The notes beneath the pieces were generated by a model. That model had not been told where the DNA came from. It searched no databases and saw only the letters and a list, made by a program, of their open reading frames with translations. Positions 4,419-14,094 of a stretch of 64,000 bases of DNA are shown piece after piece (the stretch's first letter is position 1; each line of letters opens with the position of its first letter). Made by a program: the position numbers and the translations under genes. This DNA is from Opitutia bacterium ISCC 52 (GTDB lineage: Bacteria; Verrucomicrobiota; Verrucomicrobiia; Opitutales; UBA2995): the NCBI GenBank assembly GCA_014529675.2, contig CP076040.1:806001-870000 (forward strand), given 5' to 3'.

Positions 4419-5636
4419 CTAAATCGTATGTACAAACAATCCGCTTCTTAGCTTCGGTTCGAACCATGTGCTTTTGGGAGGCATGGTTGCTCCAGCATCG
4501 GCGATGTCCATGAGCTGCCCAATCGTGACTGGATACATTGAAAATGCGACGGGACCATCTCCATTATGAACGCGCTTTTCTAACTCTTCGGTCCCTCTGA
4601 TTCCACCAATGAAATCAATACGATCACTGGTTCGTGGATCCTCGATCCCGAGAATTGGACTTAAGATGCTGTCTTGCAATCGACTGATGTCGAGGCGACT
4701 CACAGGGTCGAGCGATTCGTCTGGAGCAAACTCCAACCCATACCAGCGGTTGTTAAAATACATGCTTACTTTTCCGACTTGGTTGGGAGAAGGATCGACG
4801 TCTTCGGTAACTGTAGCTACGGATTTTACTCTCTCAAGGAAGTCCTCTTCGCTGTGGCCATTTAAGTCAAATACGAGGCGGTTGTAGGGGAGGATCTTCA
4901 GTTGGCTGGCAGGAAAGTTAACCGCTAGAAACCAGTTGTAATCTTCCTCACCGGTGTGGTTCGGATTGTTGGCTTTACGCTCGGCACCCACGCGCGCTGC
5001 ACTGGCACTGCGGTGGTGCCCATCTGCCACATAAGAGAAAGGAATATCGGCAAAGGCGCTTACCAATGCCTCCGTTTGCGCCACGCGCCACACGGTATGT
5101 TGAACTCCGTCAGGTGCGGTGAAGTCGATCAGTGGCTCTTCTTGGGTGATTTGATCTATGGACTCGTTGATTGTCGCTTCGTCCCGATAGGTCAAAAAGA
5201 CGGGCCCAGGATGTGCATTGAGGGTCGCGTTCAGTTTTGTCCGGTCGTCTTCCTTTTGCGGACGCGTTTTCTCGTGCTTCTTAATCAGATCATTGAGGTA
5301 GTCTTCAATGTGGCAAACGCTCACCAGGCCCTTTTGTTTGTGCCCATCCATCACCTGTTGATAGACGTAGAGACTGGGCGCCTCTTCGCGGACGATTGCA
5401 CCTGTTGCTTTCAACTGGTCCAGATTCTCCTTCGCTTTGGTATAAACGGGATCTGAGTAAAGGTCAGTTCCTTCCGGTAAATCAATCTCAGCTCGAACAA
5501 CATGGAGGAAGCTATGAGGATTTCCTTGGGCGAGCTCTCGGGCTTCAGATGTGTTGACTACATCGTAGGGTAAAGAGGCTACTTTGGCAGCATGTTGCGG
5601 ATCAGGGCGGAGACCTTTGAAGGCGCGAATTTTCAT
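4419..5636 (-). CDS. DUF1015 family protein
   Basis: About 405 residues. The opening MKIRAFKGLRPDPQHAAKVASLPYDVV and the following NPHSFLHVVRAEID are the family signature of DUF1015 (COG4198), as are FSYVADGHHRSASAA in the middle and the C-terminal DFIGGIRG. The ADGHHR block resembles a metal or nucleotide site, and some authors relate the fold to ParB-like kinases; no activity is established for bacterial members. I start at the ATG at 5636 because homologues begin at this methionine; an in-frame TTG 18 bases upstream would add six residues. Convergent with rpmE2 and divergent from the kinase gene. Confidence 0.88.
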   Translation of the reverse strand: MKIRAFKGLRPDPQHAAKVASLPYDVVNTSEARELAQGNPHSFLHVVRAEIDLPEGTDLYSDPVYTKAKENLDQLKATGAIVREEAPSLYVYQQVMDGHKQKGLVSVCHIEDYLNDLIKKHEKTRPQKEDDRTKLNATLNAHPGPVFLTYRDEATINESIDQITQEEPLIDFTAPDGVQHTVWRVAQTEALVSAFADIPFSYVADGHHRSASAARVGAERKANNPNHTGEEDYNWFLAVNFPASQLKILPYNRLVFDLNGHSEEDFLERVKSVATVTEDVDPSPNQVGKVSMYFNNRWYGLEFAPDESLDPVSRLDISRLQDSILSPILGIEDPRTSDRIDFIGGIRGTEELEKRVHNGDGPVAFSMYPVTIGQLMDIADAGATMPPKSTWFEPKLRSGLFVHTI

Positions 5637-5900
5637 AGAAATGGACCGGAACAAAGCTCCATGTACATGGCAAGTTTAATTGGGGGATTTTTACCTTTCT
5701 GATGGAGATTGCTTTTTGCTCCCAATATCCATCTCCCAGGGCGGCGGATATGAAAAGGCACGCTTTCTAGATAAACCGCTCGAAATCGCGTCAAGAAATT
5801 GTAAAAAAAGAGTTCAGGCTTGAATGGAGAGCGGCCTCACCGGGCTTCTGGACCAGCTTTGATACTTCTCAAACTATCAATTCTCATCCTGCTCCATCCA

Positions 5901-8621
5901 ATGTTTCCTAAGTCGTCCAGACTGAGTACACATGAAGAACTGCAGCGCACAAAACGTGAGCTAGCACGCTTCCAACGGCGTACTCAACTTCTGGAACAGC
6001 GGCTAAGGAATAACCAACAAGTTTTTGTGGATTTTGAATCGATAGCAAAAGCGGTCGGTCACTTGATCGGTTCGCGAAATTCCGAAGAGGCAGTGAGTGA
6101 GTCACTGGCTCTTATCGGTCGTGGCTCAGGCCTTGATCGAATCTATATGCTCAAGAACGTGTCGGGTGGACATCAGGGTTCAGTGATCGACCAGATTCAT
6201 ACCTGGGTTCGCGAAGACTCAGACATTACTGCTCCCGGTTTTCAATCGCTCCCGTTTGAAGTATTTTTCCCGACTTGGTTGGCTAGTCTAAAACAAGGCG
6301 AACCCATTTTTGGCTCTCTCGATAATGCACCGGATATCGAGCATCTGACATTGGCCAAGCAGGGAGTGATGTCATTTTTGTGGATTCCTATTCTCGTCGA
6401 CGGAAAGTGGTGGGGAGTTATGGGTTTTGATCAAGTGGCTCAAAATCGTAGCTGGCATCCCAAAGAGATTACGGGCTACGCCTTACTGGTCGATAGCATC
6501 TTGGAATTTATACGTCGTCAGAAGCTGGAGCAGAATCTTCGGGTTTTTCAGGAGCGTTATGAAATGGCTTCTCAAGCAGGCCAAGTCGGTGTCTGGGACT
6601 GGGATATTGATGACGAGCGAGTCTTCTTAGATTCCACCATCAAAAGCATGGCTGGTTATCCTCTGGAGGAAGATTTAGAGAGTCTGAAGCAATGGGAATT
6701 GGTATTTATCCTGGAGGGTAAGGCGAAATGGGTCGAGCTACTCAATGAGCGTATTATCAATAAGGAAAAGGATTTTGAATTGGAACATCGCCTCAGGCAT
6801 ACCAATGGTCATTTGGTGGAAGCTTTTTCCCGAGGTAAGATTGTTTACGACAAGAATGGCAAGGCGATCCGAGTATTGGGAACCACCACTGACATCACTC
6901 AGTTGAAAGCCATCCAAATGGATCTTCGTAAGGCTCGTGATTTGGCAGAGGAGGGAAGTAAGTCGAAGTCTGAATTTATGGCGAAGATGAGTCATGAAAT
7001 TCGTACACCGCTAAACGCGATAATGGGATTTTCCACTTTGCTGAAGCACACTGAGATGGACTCCGAACAAGGAGACTACCTAGTGAACCTGGAAACAAGC
7101 AGCCGCATTCTTCTTTCCATGGTGAATAACATTTTAGACTTTTCCAAAATTGAAGCGGGGAAGCTTGATCTCGAAAGGAAACCTTTCGATATCGAAGGGA
7201 CCATCGATACTATCCTCCACGTGTTTGGAGATTCCGTAATCAAAAAGGGGATCGAAATGAAATACGTGGCTGGTGACGGGATTCCTGTAAGTGTGATTAC
7301 AGATCCTTTAAGGATTCAGCAGGTGATTCTGAATCTAGTAGGTAACGCTGTAAAATTTACTGAGAGTGGAAGTATTCAAGTGCACTCCGACTGGACTGAA
7401 TCAGCACCTGGAAAAGGAAAATTGCGTATAGTCGTGAAAGATGCCGGGATTGGTATCGAAGCTGATCGCTTAGCCGCAATCTTTGAACCTTTTACTCAAG
7501 CAGATTCATCTATGACTCGACGCTTTGGCGGTTCCGGGTTGGGACTCACTATTTGTCAGAATATTCTGCAGGCAATGGGCTCGAAATTGGAAGTAGCCAG
7601 TGAACCTGGAAAGGGGACTGAATTCTCTTTCGCGATCCGCGTTGATGAAGCACCCGAAGAGGTGGTGCAGCAGATAGAAAAAATCAAAGAGTCCATTGAA
7701 GATTCTAAATCGACTCAGATGTCCTCTGGTAAAATGGAGCAACGGGCCAAAGCCAAGATCCTTCTAGCTGAGGATAATACATTGAATCAGCAAGTGATTT
7801 CAAAGCTGCTCAATCGATTGGGATACAATGCCGTACTCGTCGAGGATGGGAAGGAAGCTGTGGATGCGCTGAATCGATGGGAATTTGATTTGGTGTTTAT
7901 GGATTTAATGATGCCGATTCTAGATGGCGTATCCGCTACTAAAACGATTCGCGAGACTCTGCCTCCCGCCAAACAACCGGTGATAATTGCACTCACCGCT
8001 AATTCGTCCGAGGAAGACATCAACTCCTGCATGGAGGCTGGAATGAATGATTTTCTCAGTAAGCCTGTGGAGTTGGAGACGCTCGAGAAGACCCTGATCG
8101 AACATTTGGATCTTAATCGCTTAAGTCAGACTGAAGCAGATTCTGAAACTGAAGAAGAAACGGAAAGTTCTGAGGACGATTTTGTAGATTTAGACAGTGA
8201 GATCTTGGAGGATTCGGAAACTCAAGATGAGAAACCTTTCGAGCATTTTGATCCGGAGTTCATGCGCAATTTAATGGGGAGTAGTTCACCGCCTGAAGTG
8301 CAGGATGAGTTTTCTATCGATGCTATGGAGATTTTTGCTGAAACAACTCCGGAAGTCTTTGAGTCGCTCGCTGTTCATTATAAGGCGGAAGACTGGAAAA
8401 GTTTTGAATTGGCCGCACACAGTTTAAAAGGAACGGCAAAGACGGTAGGCGCTCTGATCCTTGGGAATATGGCACTGCAAATTGAATTGTGGGTTAAGGA
8501 CGGACACTCAGGAAACCGTGAGGGAGAAATCGAGCAAATTGAACAAGAGTTTCAGGCACTGCTTGTAGAACTTGATCGCTACTGTGATCAGTTGAAGAAA
8601 AACCAATCTAAGATCTCCTAA
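5901..8621 (+). CDS. Hybrid sensor histidine kinase with receiver and HPt domains
   Basis: About 906 residues. Order: short N-terminal coiled coil, GAF domain, PAS domain (GVWDWDIDDERVF onward), HisKA with phospho-acceptor His365 in KMSHEIRTPLNAI, HATPase with N box NLVGNAVKF and glycine boxes DAGIG and GGSGLGL, receiver with phospho-acceptor Asp668 in MDLMMPILDG and conserved Lys in LSKPVE, and C-terminal HPt with His840 in AAHSLKGT. All relay residues are present, so it can pass phosphate from His to Asp to His within one chain. No clear transmembrane helix from the ATG at 5901, so sensing is probably cytoplasmic. A TTG at 5820 would add a hydrophobic N-terminus of doubtful reality. No cognate regulator is adjacent. 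Confidence 0.93.
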   Translation: MFPKSSRLSTHEELQRTKRELARFQRRTQLLEQRLRNNQQVFVDFESIAKAVGHLIGSRNSEEAVSESLALIGRGSGLDRIYMLKNVSGGHQGSVIDQIHTWVREDSDITAPGFQSLPFEVFFPTWLASLKQGEPIFGSLDNAPDIEHLTLAKQGVMSFLWIPILVDGKWWGVMGFDQVAQNRSWHPKEITGYALLVDSILEFIRRQKLEQNLRVFQERYEMASQAGQVGVWDWDIDDERVFLDSTIKSMAGYPLEEDLESLKQWELVFILEGKAKWVELLNERIINKEKDFELEHRLRHTNGHLVEAFSRGKIVYDKNGKAIRVLGTTTDITQLKAIQMDLRKARDLAEEGSKSKSEFMAKMSHEIRTPLNAIMGFSTLLKHTEMDSEQGDYLVNLETSSRILLSMVNNILDFSKIEAGKLDLERKPFDIEGTIDTILHVFGDSVIKKGIEMKYVAGDGIPVSVITDPLRIQQVILNLVGNAVKFTESGSIQVHSDWTESAPGKGKLRIVVKDAGIGIEADRLAAIFEPFTQADSSMTRRFGGSGLGLTICQNILQAMGSKLEVASEPGKGTEFSFAIRVDEAPEEVVQQIEKIKESIEDSKSTQMSSGKMEQRAKAKILLAEDNTLNQQVISKLLNRLGYNAVLVEDGKEAVDALNRWEFDLVFMDLMMPILDGVSATKTIRETLPPAKQPVIIALTANSSEEDINSCMEAGMNDFLSKPVELETLEKTLIEHLDLNRLSQTEADSETEEETESSEDDFVDLDSEILEDSETQDEKPFEHFDPEFMRNLMGSSSPPEVQDEFSIDAMEIFAETTPEVFESLAVHYKAEDWKSFELAAHSLKGTAKTVGALILGNMALQIELWVKDGHSGNREGEIEQIEQEFQALLVELDRYCDQLKKNQSKIS

Positions 8622-8727
8622 GGTTGAATTAGTTGATTTAGTAAGGGGTTACTTGATCTCTCCATAGAATTGCTCCTTACTGAGGTTATATCTGAATCCT
8701 TTGTTTCGGATGTGCTCAGCAGGAAAT

Positions 8728-9108
8728 ATGGAAGACAGTTCGAAATTTAGAAATACCGGTATTAAACGGGTCATACTGGCCACAAAGTATTCCATGGAGG
8801 GACTCGGCTATGCCTTTAAGAATGAGGCTGCGTTTCGCCAGGAAGCACTGATGTCGATTGTGCTCATACCTGTAGCAATCTGGCTGCAGCCTGGTTTTGT
8901 GCCCTTTTGCTTATTGGTCGGAAGCTTGTTACTCGTCATGATCGTCGAGCTGCTGAACACGGGCATTGAAACGGCGATTGATTATCAATCGATGGAAATC
9001 CACCCCATGGCGAAACTGGCCAAAGACTTTGGCAGTGCGGCTGTTTTTCTAAGCTTAGTAAATCTTACTTTGGTGTGGGGATTTTATTTGTGGGATCGCT
9101 TTCTTTAA
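8728..9108 (+). CDS. dgkA: Diacylglycerol kinase family protein
   Basis: About 126 residues with three membrane helices, the usual size of bacterial DgkA. The active-site block VELLNTGIETAIDYQSME, including the catalytic Glu and the Asn-Thr pair, is intact, as is the N-terminal YAFKNEAAFRQE. It phosphorylates diacylglycerol or, in Gram-positive relatives, undecaprenol, at the inner membrane. I chose the ATG at 8728 because AGGA sits just before it; upstream TTG (8701) and ATG (8710) starts are in frame. Confidence 0.92.
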   Translation: MEDSSKFRNTGIKRVILATKYSMEGLGYAFKNEAAFRQEALMSIVLIPVAIWLQPGFVPFCLLVGSLLLVMIVELLNTGIETAIDYQSMEIHPMAKLAKDFGSAAVFLSLVNLTLVWGFYLWDRFL

Positions 9109-9126
9109 GTAGAGTGTTTCTACCCC

Positions 9127-11181
9127 ATGGTAAAACCGTCTTCGTCTTCTAAGCTCATTTCCTGGGTGGACTATTCATTGTTCCACTCCAGTGATTTTAA
9201 TTGGGTCAAAGGAAGTATTGCCATTGCACTGTGTGTTCACGCTTGGGCGTTGCGTGTTATGGTCGAGTTTGTTCCTCCGAGTGGGTTGCTCTATTTCCTT
9301 GTTCATTGCGGACTTGTCGTTGGCACCACGCTCTCCTTTGCCCTCCTGGCACCTCCACTTATTCTTGAAACTATTCGGGGTTGGAACGATAGACGAATTT
9401 CGGTGGAGGCTTGTTTTTTGTTCGGGCTGGTTCTGATGTTTTTCATCTCTTTATCGGCCTCGTTGCAAAGCCAGCCTTGGTTTTACTATGAGGTTATCTC
9501 AACCGCCCTTATGGTTTACGGTGGTGGACGTCATTGGCTGACTCGGAAAATGAGGCTCATCAAGGAGGCTCTCCCGTTACACTTCAATCGGATTGAGCGG
9601 TGCAATCGAGTGGAGGCTGACGGATCGGTCGTGCGCATTCCATTAGTCGACCTGAAAGCGGGCGATGAGATAAAAGTATCTACCTCCCAGGTGATTCCCG
9701 TAGATGGCGTGGTTGTTCGCGGTGAGGGATACGTATCGGAAGCTTCACTCAAAGGAACTACATTTCCCGTAATTAAACAACCTGGTGATCCGATCCTTGC
9801 AGGGAGTGTTTCTCAAGATGGAATCTTTACTCTGAAAACGTTAGCTCCTTACTTGCCCAGAAAGTTTCAAATCATCTCGAACCCGTTGTTAAATACTGAA
9901 GGTTATGACAACAACTTAAGGGTGAGTTCCATGTATGCGTCACTGATACTTGGAGTGCTTGCCGGTATTGGTTTTGTTGCGGGAGCGGATCGCTCGGGAT
10001 TTTATCCAGCTTTAGTTCAGGCATCAGGCATTCTAATTGCCGGAGGTGCTCTTGTATGGGTTTCGGGTATCCCCGTCCATTACTGGACAGGGCTTGTTCA
10101 TTTGACCAAACGCAAGCTGTACGGACGAGGTCCTGAATTTGTTACTCAAATGGCAAACGTGGATTGTGCATTTTTTGGTAAAACCGGTGTGGTATCGCGT
10201 AACGACCTCAAGCTAGAGCGCTTATTTGTCATGCCTGCTTTTCAAGATCGAGAGGATTGGATAATTTCTCTTATTCATCAAACCAAGCGAATGGTCCATC
10301 ATCCTCTTCTTAATTCTCTGAGTGGTGTCGGAGGATTGATTGATGGCGAACCGGTTCTGGAAGACCTTCAATACAATATTATCCCAGGATCCGGTGTTGA
10401 AGTGAACCTAACTGACGGTTTGGGAAATCGTAGAAAGCTAAGGATTGGCGAACAGCACTACATTCTTGGTCAAAATGGAGAATCTAAATTTAGAGCGATA
10501 CTCGAAGAGCATGATTTTACTTCCGGGAAGAGAATATGGTTCAGCTTGGATGATCGTTTGTGTGCCCTCGCAAAATTGAAAGAGGCGTGGAACATATCTC
10601 CCCAACCTTTCTTTGCTCAAATGAAATATCTGGGAGTTCCCTCAGGGATCCTGACCGGGGACTCTGAATTTGATGATGCCAGATTGGAGGGCCTGGACCT
10701 TGAGAAAAATCTTTCATCACGACAAAAGCAGGACCGCGTCGTGACTGAAATGGAATCGGACCAACGAGTATTATTTGTCGGGGACGGATTAAATGACTTT
10801 CGTGCTATGAGTGCCTCTTATGTATCGATTGCCTTGCGTCATTCACCTGATCCTTTACTTGCTTCAGCTTCAGCTGTGCTAGCCTCAAACAGACTCTCTA
10901 CAATCGCGTTCTCAATCCCTTATTGCCGAAGAATTATTCGGCTGTCCAAAATTAACGAATGGGCTTTTCTAGGAGGAACGACTTTGGTGAGTTTCGGGCT
11001 TATATTAGGCTGGTTGAATCCACTGGCCGCTCTTTCGGCACAGGTGATTGCTTCAGTTGTAATTGCTGCGCAATCTTACTTCTTAGGAAGCAGTGTGCTT
11101 TCCAGCGTGAAGAAACGTTCTCGACGGCGTGTCAGCCAACGCGAAATCCTGGAAGATGTCGCTCCTTACCGTAGGCGCTGA
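9127..11181 (+). CDS. P-type ATPase homologue lacking the catalytic Asp (pseudoenzyme)
   Basis: 684 residues with the layout of a heavy-metal (P1B) ATPase: membrane helices, actuator domain (about 150-260), helices, P and N domains, two last helices. The actuator core VSEASLKGTTFPVIKQPGDP aligns with the family's DESxLTGESxPVxKxxGD, but TGES is replaced by K209-G-T-T. The phosphorylation motif DKTGT is G351-K-T-G-V, so the phosphorylated Asp is missing. The HP motif of the N domain (VHHPLLN) and the hinge GDGLND (552-557) remain. The transmembrane CPC/SPC metal site is replaced by SGIPVHYW. There is no N-terminal metal-binding domain. ATP-driven transport by the standard cycle is therefore unlikely; a regulatory or scaffold role is inference. 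It follows dgkA by 18 bases. Confidence 0.85.
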   Translation: MVKPSSSSKLISWVDYSLFHSSDFNWVKGSIAIALCVHAWALRVMVEFVPPSGLLYFLVHCGLVVGTTLSFALLAPPLILETIRGWNDRRISVEACFLFGLVLMFFISLSASLQSQPWFYYEVISTALMVYGGGRHWLTRKMRLIKEALPLHFNRIERCNRVEADGSVVRIPLVDLKAGDEIKVSTSQVIPVDGVVVRGEGYVSEASLKGTTFPVIKQPGDPILAGSVSQDGIFTLKTLAPYLPRKFQIISNPLLNTEGYDNNLRVSSMYASLILGVLAGIGFVAGADRSGFYPALVQASGILIAGGALVWVSGIPVHYWTGLVHLTKRKLYGRGPEFVTQMANVDCAFFGKTGVVSRNDLKLERLFVMPAFQDREDWIISLIHQTKRMVHHPLLNSLSGVGGLIDGEPVLEDLQYNIIPGSGVEVNLTDGLGNRRKLRIGEQHYILGQNGESKFRAILEEHDFTSGKRIWFSLDDRLCALAKLKEAWNISPQPFFAQMKYLGVPSGILTGDSEFDDARLEGLDLEKNLSSRQKQDRVVTEMESDQRVLFVGDGLNDFRAMSASYVSIALRHSPDPLLASASAVLASNRLSTIAFSIPYCRRIIRLSKINEWAFLGGTTLVSFGLILGWLNPLAALSAQVIASVVIAAQSYFLGSSVLSSVKKRSRRRVSQREILEDVAPYRRR

Positions 11182-11186
11182 GGATA

Positions 11187-11957
11187 CTAAAAGATGAGGT
11201 GTTTGATGGATGCCTTGCTTTCTGCCAGTTGTTTGAGCGCTTCAATGCCGATCTTTACATGAGTGGAGGTAAAATTCTGATTAACCATTGCATCACTCTC
11301 CTCTGTTTTGATGCCCTCAGGAATCATGGGTTCATCGGAGACCAGCAGTAGTGCTCCGGTAGGAATTCGATTGTTAAATCCCACAGAGAAAATAGTGGCC
11401 GTTTCCATTTCGATGGCGTTGCAGCGAATCTTAGTCAGGTAGTCCTTAAACTCCTCATCATGTTCCCAGACTCGGCGGTTGGTTGTGTAGGCAACCCCGG
11501 TGTAGTAATCCTGTTCCTGATCACGGATGGCTTCGGATGTGGCTCTTTGCAGTTCGAATGCGGGCAATGCAGGCACTTCTGGCGGAAAGTAATCGTTGGA
11601 AGTTCCTTCACCTCGGATGGCTGCAATGGGTAATAAAAAGGATCCGATCGGCATATCGCTCTTTAAACTGCCACATTTTCCCAAAAACAGAACTCCCTTG
11701 GGATTGATCGCGGTCAATAGATCCATGATGGATGCAGCGTTGGCGCTACCCATTCCAAAGTTTATCATGGTGATATTATCCGCCGTCGCTGTTGGCATCG
11801 GTTTCCCCTTGCCTTGGACCTTCACACGATTCCAACGAGCAAATTTGTTTAAGTAGTCGTTGAAGTTGGTGAGCAGGATGTACTCCCCGAAATCTTTTAG
11901 TGCAACTCCGGTGTATCTAGGAAGCCAGTTTTCAACAATTCCCTCTTTGGTAACCAT
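11187..11957 (-). CDS. amn: AMP nucleosidase
   Basis: 256 residues from the ATG at 11957; an upstream TTG would add nine. The sequence TKEGIVENWLPRYTG, followed by GEYILLTNF and the phosphorylase-fold blocks MINFGMGSANAAS, LFLGKCGSLK and CNAIEMETATIFSVG, marks it as the short AMP nucleosidase type common in Bacteroidota. It hydrolyses AMP to adenine and ribose 5-phosphate in purine salvage in the cytoplasm. The EMETA block carries the ribose-binding Glu of the purine-phosphorylase superfamily. Convergent, six bases from the end of the ATPase-like gene. Confidence 0.92.
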   Translation of the reverse strand: MVTKEGIVENWLPRYTGVALKDFGEYILLTNFNDYLNKFARWNRVKVQGKGKPMPTATADNITMINFGMGSANAASIMDLLTAINPKGVLFLGKCGSLKSDMPIGSFLLPIAAIRGEGTSNDYFPPEVPALPAFELQRATSEAIRDQEQDYYTGVAYTTNRRVWEHDEEFKDYLTKIRCNAIEMETATIFSVGFNNRIPTGALLLVSDEPMIPEGIKTEESDAMVNQNFTSTHVKIGIEALKQLAESKASIKHLIF

Positions 11958-13242: not shown

Positions 13243-14094
13243 ATGAATGCAAATAGAGGTGTCGTTTACATTTCTACTGGCGACAGGTTTTATGACGAAT
13301 GTCTAAAATCAGTCGGTAGCCTGAAGCAGCATAATCCAGATTTATCGGTAACGATATTTACGGATCGTGAGGAGGTGGACCCACTCTTTGATAACTTTGT
13401 CCAAATTGAGAAGCCCTATTTCTCGGTGTTGGACAAAATCTGCAATATCTGGAAAACTCCTTATGATCAGACTCTCTTCATCGATTCTGATACTTACATA
13501 ACGGGCAGCCTTGATGAATACTTTGATGTTCTAGAATACTGCGATTTTGCCGGAACGATTGCGTCTGCACGCGGGTATTGGTACGAAGGTGAGATGGATA
13601 TCCCTCGAGGCCTGTGTGACATCAATGGAGGAGTCCTTTGTTTCCGAAATACCCTGGCAGTAATGAATGCGTTAAAACAGTGGCATTCGGAATATCTAAA
13701 AACTGCCGGATGGCTTGAGAAATACGGACCTGATGAGTGGTATCTCACGAACGATCAACCGAGTCTTCGAAAATTAATTTGGACCAACCGCGACATACGT
13801 GTGGCCATTTTACCAGATGAATACAACGCGTTAAGGTTATTTGGAACCCGTCTATGGGGAGAAGCGAAGATCGTCCACGGTAGATGCGATATTCTTCGAA
13901 TTGCCAAAGAGATGAATGAAAATGCAGGAGAGAACAGAGTCTTTCTTCAAGGAGCTGGAACGGATATGCCTATTCAAAACATTTCAGTCTGGAATGGATT
14001 GAAGCAAAGCTTCCGCATGTTTATCTCCATTTTCTATCTGAAATTTAAATTGTTTGAGAGTCCTGTTCTCCAGTTGATACGGAAGAAGACTTAG
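13243..14094 (+). CDS. Nucleotide-sugar glycosyltransferase (GT-A fold)
   Basis: 283 residues, no signal peptide. The N-terminus GVVYISTGDRFYDECLKSVGSLKQ and IFTDRE resembles GT8-like and related GT-A transferases, and FIDSDTYI supplies the metal-binding DxD motif around residue 80. DINGGVLCF and NDQPSLRKLIW fit the acceptor side of the pocket. It probably transfers a sugar to a cell-surface glycan in the cytoplasm; donor and acceptor are unknown. It is a single gene on the strand opposite to its neighbours and its upstream region is AT-rich, compatible with late insertion between lipA and lipB. Confidence 0.78.
   Translation: MNANRGVVYISTGDRFYDECLKSVGSLKQHNPDLSVTIFTDREEVDPLFDNFVQIEKPYFSVLDKICNIWKTPYDQTLFIDSDTYITGSLDEYFDVLEYCDFAGTIASARGYWYEGEMDIPRGLCDINGGVLCFRNTLAVMNALKQWHSEYLKTAGWLEKYGPDEWYLTNDQPSLRKLIWTNRDIRVAILPDEYNALRLFGTRLWGEAKIVHGRCDILRIAKEMNENAGENRVFLQGAGTDMPIQNISVWNGLKQSFRMFISIFYLKFKLFESPVLQLIRKKT

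Follow-up and report, generated by a model that had tools for sequence, protein, structure and literature searches.

A conserved P1B-type ATPase homologue without key catalytic motifs, next to dgkA and a hybrid histidine kinase gene in Opitutales

P-type ATPases are viewed as pumps with a phosphorylated aspartate in common. A gene of Opitutia bacterium ISCC 52 encodes a homologue with a glycine at the aspartate position, which raises the question of whether this protein is a damaged pump or one that is kept for another task. The gene lies in the window, the stretch of 64,000 nucleotides analyzed here (G000:C1:806001-870000), taken from a single-contig 4.8-Mb genome. Its features, by window position, are:

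9127..11181, + strand: gene of the pseudo P1B-type ATPase, 684 aa, open frame
9751..9759, + strand: KGT for TGE in the A domain, codons 209-211, from the alignment
10072..10101, + strand: PVHYWTGLVH, codons 316-325, just past the CPC-aligned stretch; nine of the ten residues (not 319) invariant in five orthologues
10177..10191, + strand: GKTGV for DKTGT, codons 351-355, from the alignment; Gly351 at the Asp position

Loss and retention of the ATPase motifs

Common descent with the P-type ATPase superfamily is supported by matches to Pfam E1-E2_ATPase (PF00122; 2.2e-15, 57.1 bits against a cut-off of 28.1) and TIGR01494 (71 bits against 62.3), by a profile match to CopA (3j08; 128 bits, 3.7e-36, positions 74-652) and by the tree described below. 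TIGR01525 matches at 1.1e-44 with 153.3 bits, under its curated cut-off of 346.25, which is a weak test, as only one of the two active relatives scanned passes it (404) and the other just fails (336). No match to the HAD hydrolase model PF00702 was found in the protein at 0.001. Seven membrane stretches are visible in a hydropathy scan at the cut used; the long helices of an AlphaFold model would fit eight, but this model, built from four alignment rows, is unusable at a mean pLDDT of only 39.6. The genome has one other E1-E2 ATPase family match besides this gene, an ATPase at 3.69 Mb that is of the SPC type and has DKTGT.

The domain order is that of the P1B copper ATPases (CopA and the CopA2/FixI/CcoI branch), from which the protein differs by the absence of DKTGT, TGE, CPC, YN/MxxSS and the N-terminal Cys pair. 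Alignment with relatives bore out the original prediction, which had named the change of DKTGT to GKTGV, the loss of the TGES loop and of CPC, and the retention of the GDGxND hinge and the HP motif in an open frame of normal length. Residues 209-211 read K-G-T where the relatives have [TNS]-G-E, and the CPCALGLATP of the relatives aligns with GALVWVSGIP in a transmembrane stretch. Two further losses can be added to that prediction: Val replaces the last Thr of DKTGT, and the last two transmembrane helices no longer carry the YN and MxxSS residues, present in active relatives and presumably involved in copper binding.

All five orthologues, from five separate genomes, carry GKTGV within the motif F-[F/Y]-G-K-T-G-V, with no acidic residue substituting for Asp351. 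They also share [KN]G[ST] at the site of the TGE glutamate and lack a CPC/SPC membrane metal site. Invariant in the same five are T353, H392-P393, T510-G511-D512, K534 and, in the hinge, G552-D553-G554, N556 and D557. ATP may still be bound, as had been proposed: HP is kept, but it is preceded by Lys or Ser in place of the Glu often found in active relatives, and one of the five copies is without the second Gly of GxG.

In P1B ATPases, no phosphoenzyme should form without the aspartate, none could be resolved without TGE, and copper has no known site without CPC, YN and MxxSS. The protein is thus very probably non-transporting, as judged from these motifs. The earlier suggestion that it may bind metal is weakened, as the metal-coordinating residues of active relatives are gone.

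Distribution, divergence and selection of the family

Orthologues were found in five of the six genus genomes examined for this group of uncultured bacteria: besides the window genome (G000), these are G005, G002, G001 and G004, at 94%, 58%, 55% and 53% identity to the window protein, respectively (G004 being cut at its contig start). At the threshold used, the pseudo-ATPase was not found in G003 or in the sister genus, represented by two genomes. Among 372 genomes of the order, the five orthologues stand apart at 1174-1344 bits, followed by a best other match of 281. No further family members were found in three overlapping samples, of 372 genomes from the order, 384 from the class and 387 from the phylum, searched at 1e-35, 1e-75 and 1e-84, with at most three candidates scored per genome among the matches listed. 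The best non-orthologue in the class sample scores 285 bits, and two class matches fetched from outside the order both carry DKTGT and CPC. When named genomes were scanned, the matches were three of these orthologues and a DKTGT-bearing ATPase of Heyndrickxia.

Active relatives in the order are distant, at 22-29% identity to the window protein. DKTGT and CPC are kept in all 40 of their loci (L007-L020, L023 and L062-L086; 38 distinct, L072 and L077 duplicating L007 and L009), CPC being read from one alignment of 15 and another of 25. Among the 15 active relatives aligned, all have the TGE glutamate and 11 the N-terminal Cys pair; no Pfam match to a metal-binding HMA domain was found in the two that were scanned.

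In seven of the 15 neighborhoods viewed (G044, G045, G026, G016, G034, G038 and G009; some of the remaining ones are cut by contig ends), the active ATPase lies directly upstream of an operon resembling that of Alternative Complex III. The genes downstream of the ATPase in G044 encode, by Pfam, a multihaem cytochrome, an Fe-S protein and an NrfD protein, which we take to be the start of such an operon; the other six neighborhoods are alike. This adjacency suggests a role in copper supply for the respiratory cluster. A P1B ATPase with DKTGT and CPC was seen upstream of that operon at L038, L039, L040, L041, L047, L048 and L052. The operon of G000, G003 and G006 has no ATPase upstream and is preceded by an exporter cluster instead, of the FtsX/MacB type by Pfam in G000 and recognized by visual inspection in G003 and G006; the contig of G001 ends too early to show what precedes it. 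G000 has two COX1 (haem-copper oxidase) matches, yet no CPC-type ATPase was found there, the only other E1-E2 ATPase match being SPC-type.

In a tree of 54 proteins, the five pseudo-ATPases form a single clade (support 100/100); its stem, at 3.06 changes per site, far exceeds the median end branch of 0.34. The clade is nested among active relatives with weak support (89/68, 85/61); as 17 rows fail the composition test and the long stem is prone to misplacement, its sister is uncertain. For the G000-G005 pair, dN/dS is 0.051 (dN 0.028, dS 0.546; Nei-Gojobori); the values for dgkA and for the next gene after the pseudo-ATPase are 0.085 and 0.007. This is the only usable pair, the other nine being saturated at synonymous sites.

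Identity by region was compared between nine pseudo-ATPase pairs (the 94% pair left out) and 96 active pairs at 48-66% identity, from 37 sequences after two duplicates were dropped. Mean identity is higher in the pseudo-ATPases than in active relatives for the A domain (0.73 vs. 0.53) and the N domain (0.64 vs. 0.33), with separate ranges, and for the first 24 residues (0.78 vs. 0.33, ranges just overlapping). It is lower for the transmembrane segment of the CPC region (0.44 vs. 0.69, ranges separate), the first transmembrane segments (0.55 vs. 0.66) and the last transmembrane pair (0.41 vs. 0.58), the latter two with overlapping ranges. The two parts of the P domain give 0.59 vs. 0.56 and 0.58 vs. 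0.49. Constraint has shifted from the transport path to the cytosolic side, and the pattern is inverted relative to active relatives.

These data bear on several alternatives. A sequencing error or a recent loss is ruled out, as the same changes are shared by five separate genomes with open frames. Glycine is kept in all five orthologues of the genus and Asp in the far relatives, so a recent loss betrayed by homologues that retain Asp, the outcome that would have spoken against the original prediction, does not apply inside the genus. A decaying pseudogene or an assembly error would explain the lost motifs, and G003 seems to represent a decayed end state; either is hardly credible when five genomes agree, all frames are open even at 53-58% identity and the closest pair shows strong constraint on its protein sequence. 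Very improbable, too, is a pump or phosphatase that still works through another nucleophile. Thr353, TGD, Lys534 and GDGxND are invariant, but nothing acidic replaces Asp351 and the TGE glutamate is also gone, so both halves of the cycle were lost together. Without any need for phosphorylation, the protein could also conduct or bind a new substrate passively, be it a lipid, an ion or a metal, and could make use of the new, almost invariant PVHxWTGLVH just past the CPC position. We consider this unlikely, because the CPC-region segment and the last transmembrane pair are the least conserved parts, the opposite of active relatives. With Gly351 in five of five orthologues, the low dN/dS and five open frames, the view that this is a selected pseudoenzyme can be held with high confidence.

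The neighboring kinase and dgkA

Two genes upstream of the pseudo-ATPase are relevant to its possible role:

5901..8621, + strand: hybrid histidine kinase (GAF, PAS, HisKA, HATPase, receiver and Hpt by Pfam; conserved start)
8728..9108, + strand: dgkA, prokaryotic diacylglycerol kinase family (Pfam DAGK_prokar, 1.1e-31)

The predicted neighbor dgkA was confirmed directly upstream, ending 18 nt before the pseudo-ATPase start; the gap is 17-19 nt in the four genomes where both genes are visible. Six of the seven dgkA orthologues compared start with Met-Glu-Asp, and that of G007 with Met-Glu-Asn. In the spacer, a perfect 5-bp inverted repeat (GTAGA-TCTAC, 9109-9123) is present in G000 and G002 and absent from G001 and G005. 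Between the kinase and dgkA, the gap measures 106 nt, so these two need not share a transcript. Neither promoter-like sites (four, against a shuffle mean of 6.0) nor terminator-like sites (six, against 5.6 in shuffles) are in excess in 5600-11400. Further downstream, a glycosyltransferase-like gene (by eye; 13243-14091) occurs in G000 and G005 and is missing from the same block of G001, G002, G003 and G004.

The kinase orthologues compared share the start Met-Phe-[Pro/Ser]-Lys, and from this start onward no membrane-like stretch was found in the hydropathy scan. A longer start at 5820, also present in G005, would add a hydrophobic stretch; it was dropped, as G001 begins at the conserved Met and the extension in G002 is unrelated. 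Each of the five pseudo-ATPase genomes also has a kinase orthologue (66-95% identity). None was found at E<=1e-60 in the three family members that lack the pseudo-ATPase (G003, G006 and G007), all of which have dgkA. The whole kinase gene adjoins dgkA in G000, G001 and G002, and its 3' part does so at a contig end in G005; the contig of G004 begins inside the pseudo-ATPase gene, which places this adjacency outside the view.

In G003, a 20-kb block of the region is largely kept. The window and G001 have 15 genes of this block in common; 13 of them are found in G003 and the missing two are exactly the kinase and the pseudo-ATPase, dgkA being retained. This is one of 105 possible pairs, a post hoc figure for a single event. 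Upstream of dgkA, a relic of the kinase gene is firm by sequence comparison: its C-terminal tail scores 58 against a background maximum of 38 (0 of 2000), and an internal piece scores 87, reached by none of 400 shuffles and by two of 800 background stretches, which are perhaps other kinases. For a relic of the pseudo-ATPase gene, the main evidence is the junction with dgkA, comprising the spacer and the start codon (58 against a background maximum of 36, 0 of 3000). A C-terminal piece is weaker (6 of 2000 as DNA, 4 of 1000 as protein), and the whole-gene comparison is reached by 65 of 300 background stretches and the protein comparison by 15 of 400 shuffles. The sequence past the ATG alone, reached by 34 of 2000 background stretches, is not distinctive, which makes this relic probable rather than certain. 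If both relics are real, the kinase and the pseudo-ATPase were present in an ancestor of G003 and were removed on either side of the retained dgkA.

The genome of G003 measures 3.1 Mb, against 4.6-6.0 Mb in the others, and the double loss could be part of general genome shrinkage. The double absence in this one reduced-genome lineage suggests a working link between kinase and pseudo-ATPase. No convincing relics were found next to dgkA in G006 and G007 by DNA and protein comparison against shuffles. The observed DNA scores were reached downstream by 53 of 300 (G007) and 11 of 300 (G006) shuffles, and upstream by 11 of 300 (G007) and 25 of 300 (G006). For protein, the counts were 91 of 200 (G007) and 35 of 200 (G006; 14 nt tested) upstream, and 15 of 200 for each downstream.

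Possible role and comparison with known systems

Tentatively, the explanation that we prefer as a whole is that a disarmed P1B ATPase is kept as a non-transporting membrane regulator together with the hybrid kinase and DgkA. As predicted by alignment, selection retains the A and N domains, the conserved N-terminus and a HAD-type core including the end that would bind Mg2+; conformational signaling would be their likeliest use. The partner best supported by the genome evidence is the soluble hybrid kinase, and we infer a lipid link for DgkA. That the pseudo-ATPase acts as a regulatory partner of the kinase is conceivable, and is put forward with somewhat more caution than the explanation as a whole.

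In such a scheme, a copper-class P1B ATPase would have lost phosphorylation, dephosphorylation and metal coordination once, on the long ancestral branch, would have come to adjoin dgkA and would then have been held by purifying selection. Its HAD core and A and N domains would serve as a platform whose conformation responds to a small ligand, which might be a lipid (for example phosphatidic acid, the DgkA product), a nucleotide or Mg2+. The ligand state would be passed on to the soluble GAF/PAS hybrid kinase, which itself has no membrane segment. In its most specific form, a former bacterial P-type ATPase would now serve a phosphorelay as its membrane sensor, with the A and N domains reading the ligand, the kinase receiving the signal and DgkA between them as source or target of a lipid signal; this form is rather doubtful.

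Alternatively, the pseudo-ATPase could be a regulatory or scaffold subunit of DgkA only, with the kinase as an incidental neighbor. DgkA makes phosphatidic acid. The constant short distance between dgkA and the pseudo-ATPase in the four genomes showing both fits this alternative, as does TMEM94, a P-type-like protein whose membrane core holds a phosphatidic-acid-shaped lipid according to the accessible text of one report (PMC12134183). We regard it as rather unlikely, because G003, G006 and G007 have dgkA without the pseudo-ATPase, and it is the kinase that matches the pseudo-ATPase in presence and absence. A role in membrane homeostasis beside dgkA, as first proposed, is possible, but the stronger link is to the histidine kinase across dgkA.

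The membrane regulator proposed here can be compared with several known systems. Within the P1B copper ATPases, the CopA2/FixI/CcoI branch is described, in the available parts of two sources, as feeding copper to oxidases (PMC12617631; PMC8475189). Human TMEM94 (ERMA) shares with the pseudo-ATPase a P-type-like A/P/N fold without TGES. The accessible text of its report states that ATPase activity was not detected, that AMPPCP affinity was micromolar, that a phosphatidic-acid-shaped lipid was bound and that no nucleotide was seen in the structures (PMC12134183). Unlike the pseudo-ATPase, it is eukaryotic, has ten transmembrane helices and has an aspartate, D417, named at the P-like site (PMC12134183), and its status is disputed, with others reporting a Mg2+ ATPase in the text available (PMC13322241).

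The P4-ATPase-like domain of Plasmodium guanylyl cyclase beta is likewise degenerate and tied to a signaling enzyme, most of its signature residues not being identifiable according to the parts of the source at hand (PMC6592433). In contrast to the pseudo-ATPase, this domain is fused to its enzyme, of the P4 class and eukaryotic. The same parts report that the ATPase domain is dispensable for the function of the cyclase domain (PMC6592433), which makes it a weaker precedent for a needed sensor. In BceAB-BceS, PstSCAB-PhoR and DctA-DcuS, the kinase of a two-component system receives information from a membrane transport protein (PMC6978683, in the text available); the co-sensor transporters BceAB, PstSCAB and DctA belong to families other than P-type ATPases, and the term "P-type ATPase" is absent from the accessible text of that review (PMC6978683). 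No bacterial precedent for a pseudoenzyme P-type ATPase was found in searches of one open-access collection, as judged by titles and the starts of abstracts.

A 2023 review, in its accessible part, asks whether the name transceptor suits eukaryotic P1B pumps and when such functions developed (PMC10654040). The pseudo-ATPase family is a natural example of a pump that has lost its pumping while selection maintains the rest, with active sisters to compare and a candidate partner at hand. The role of a P-type scaffold without pumping thereby becomes directly testable.
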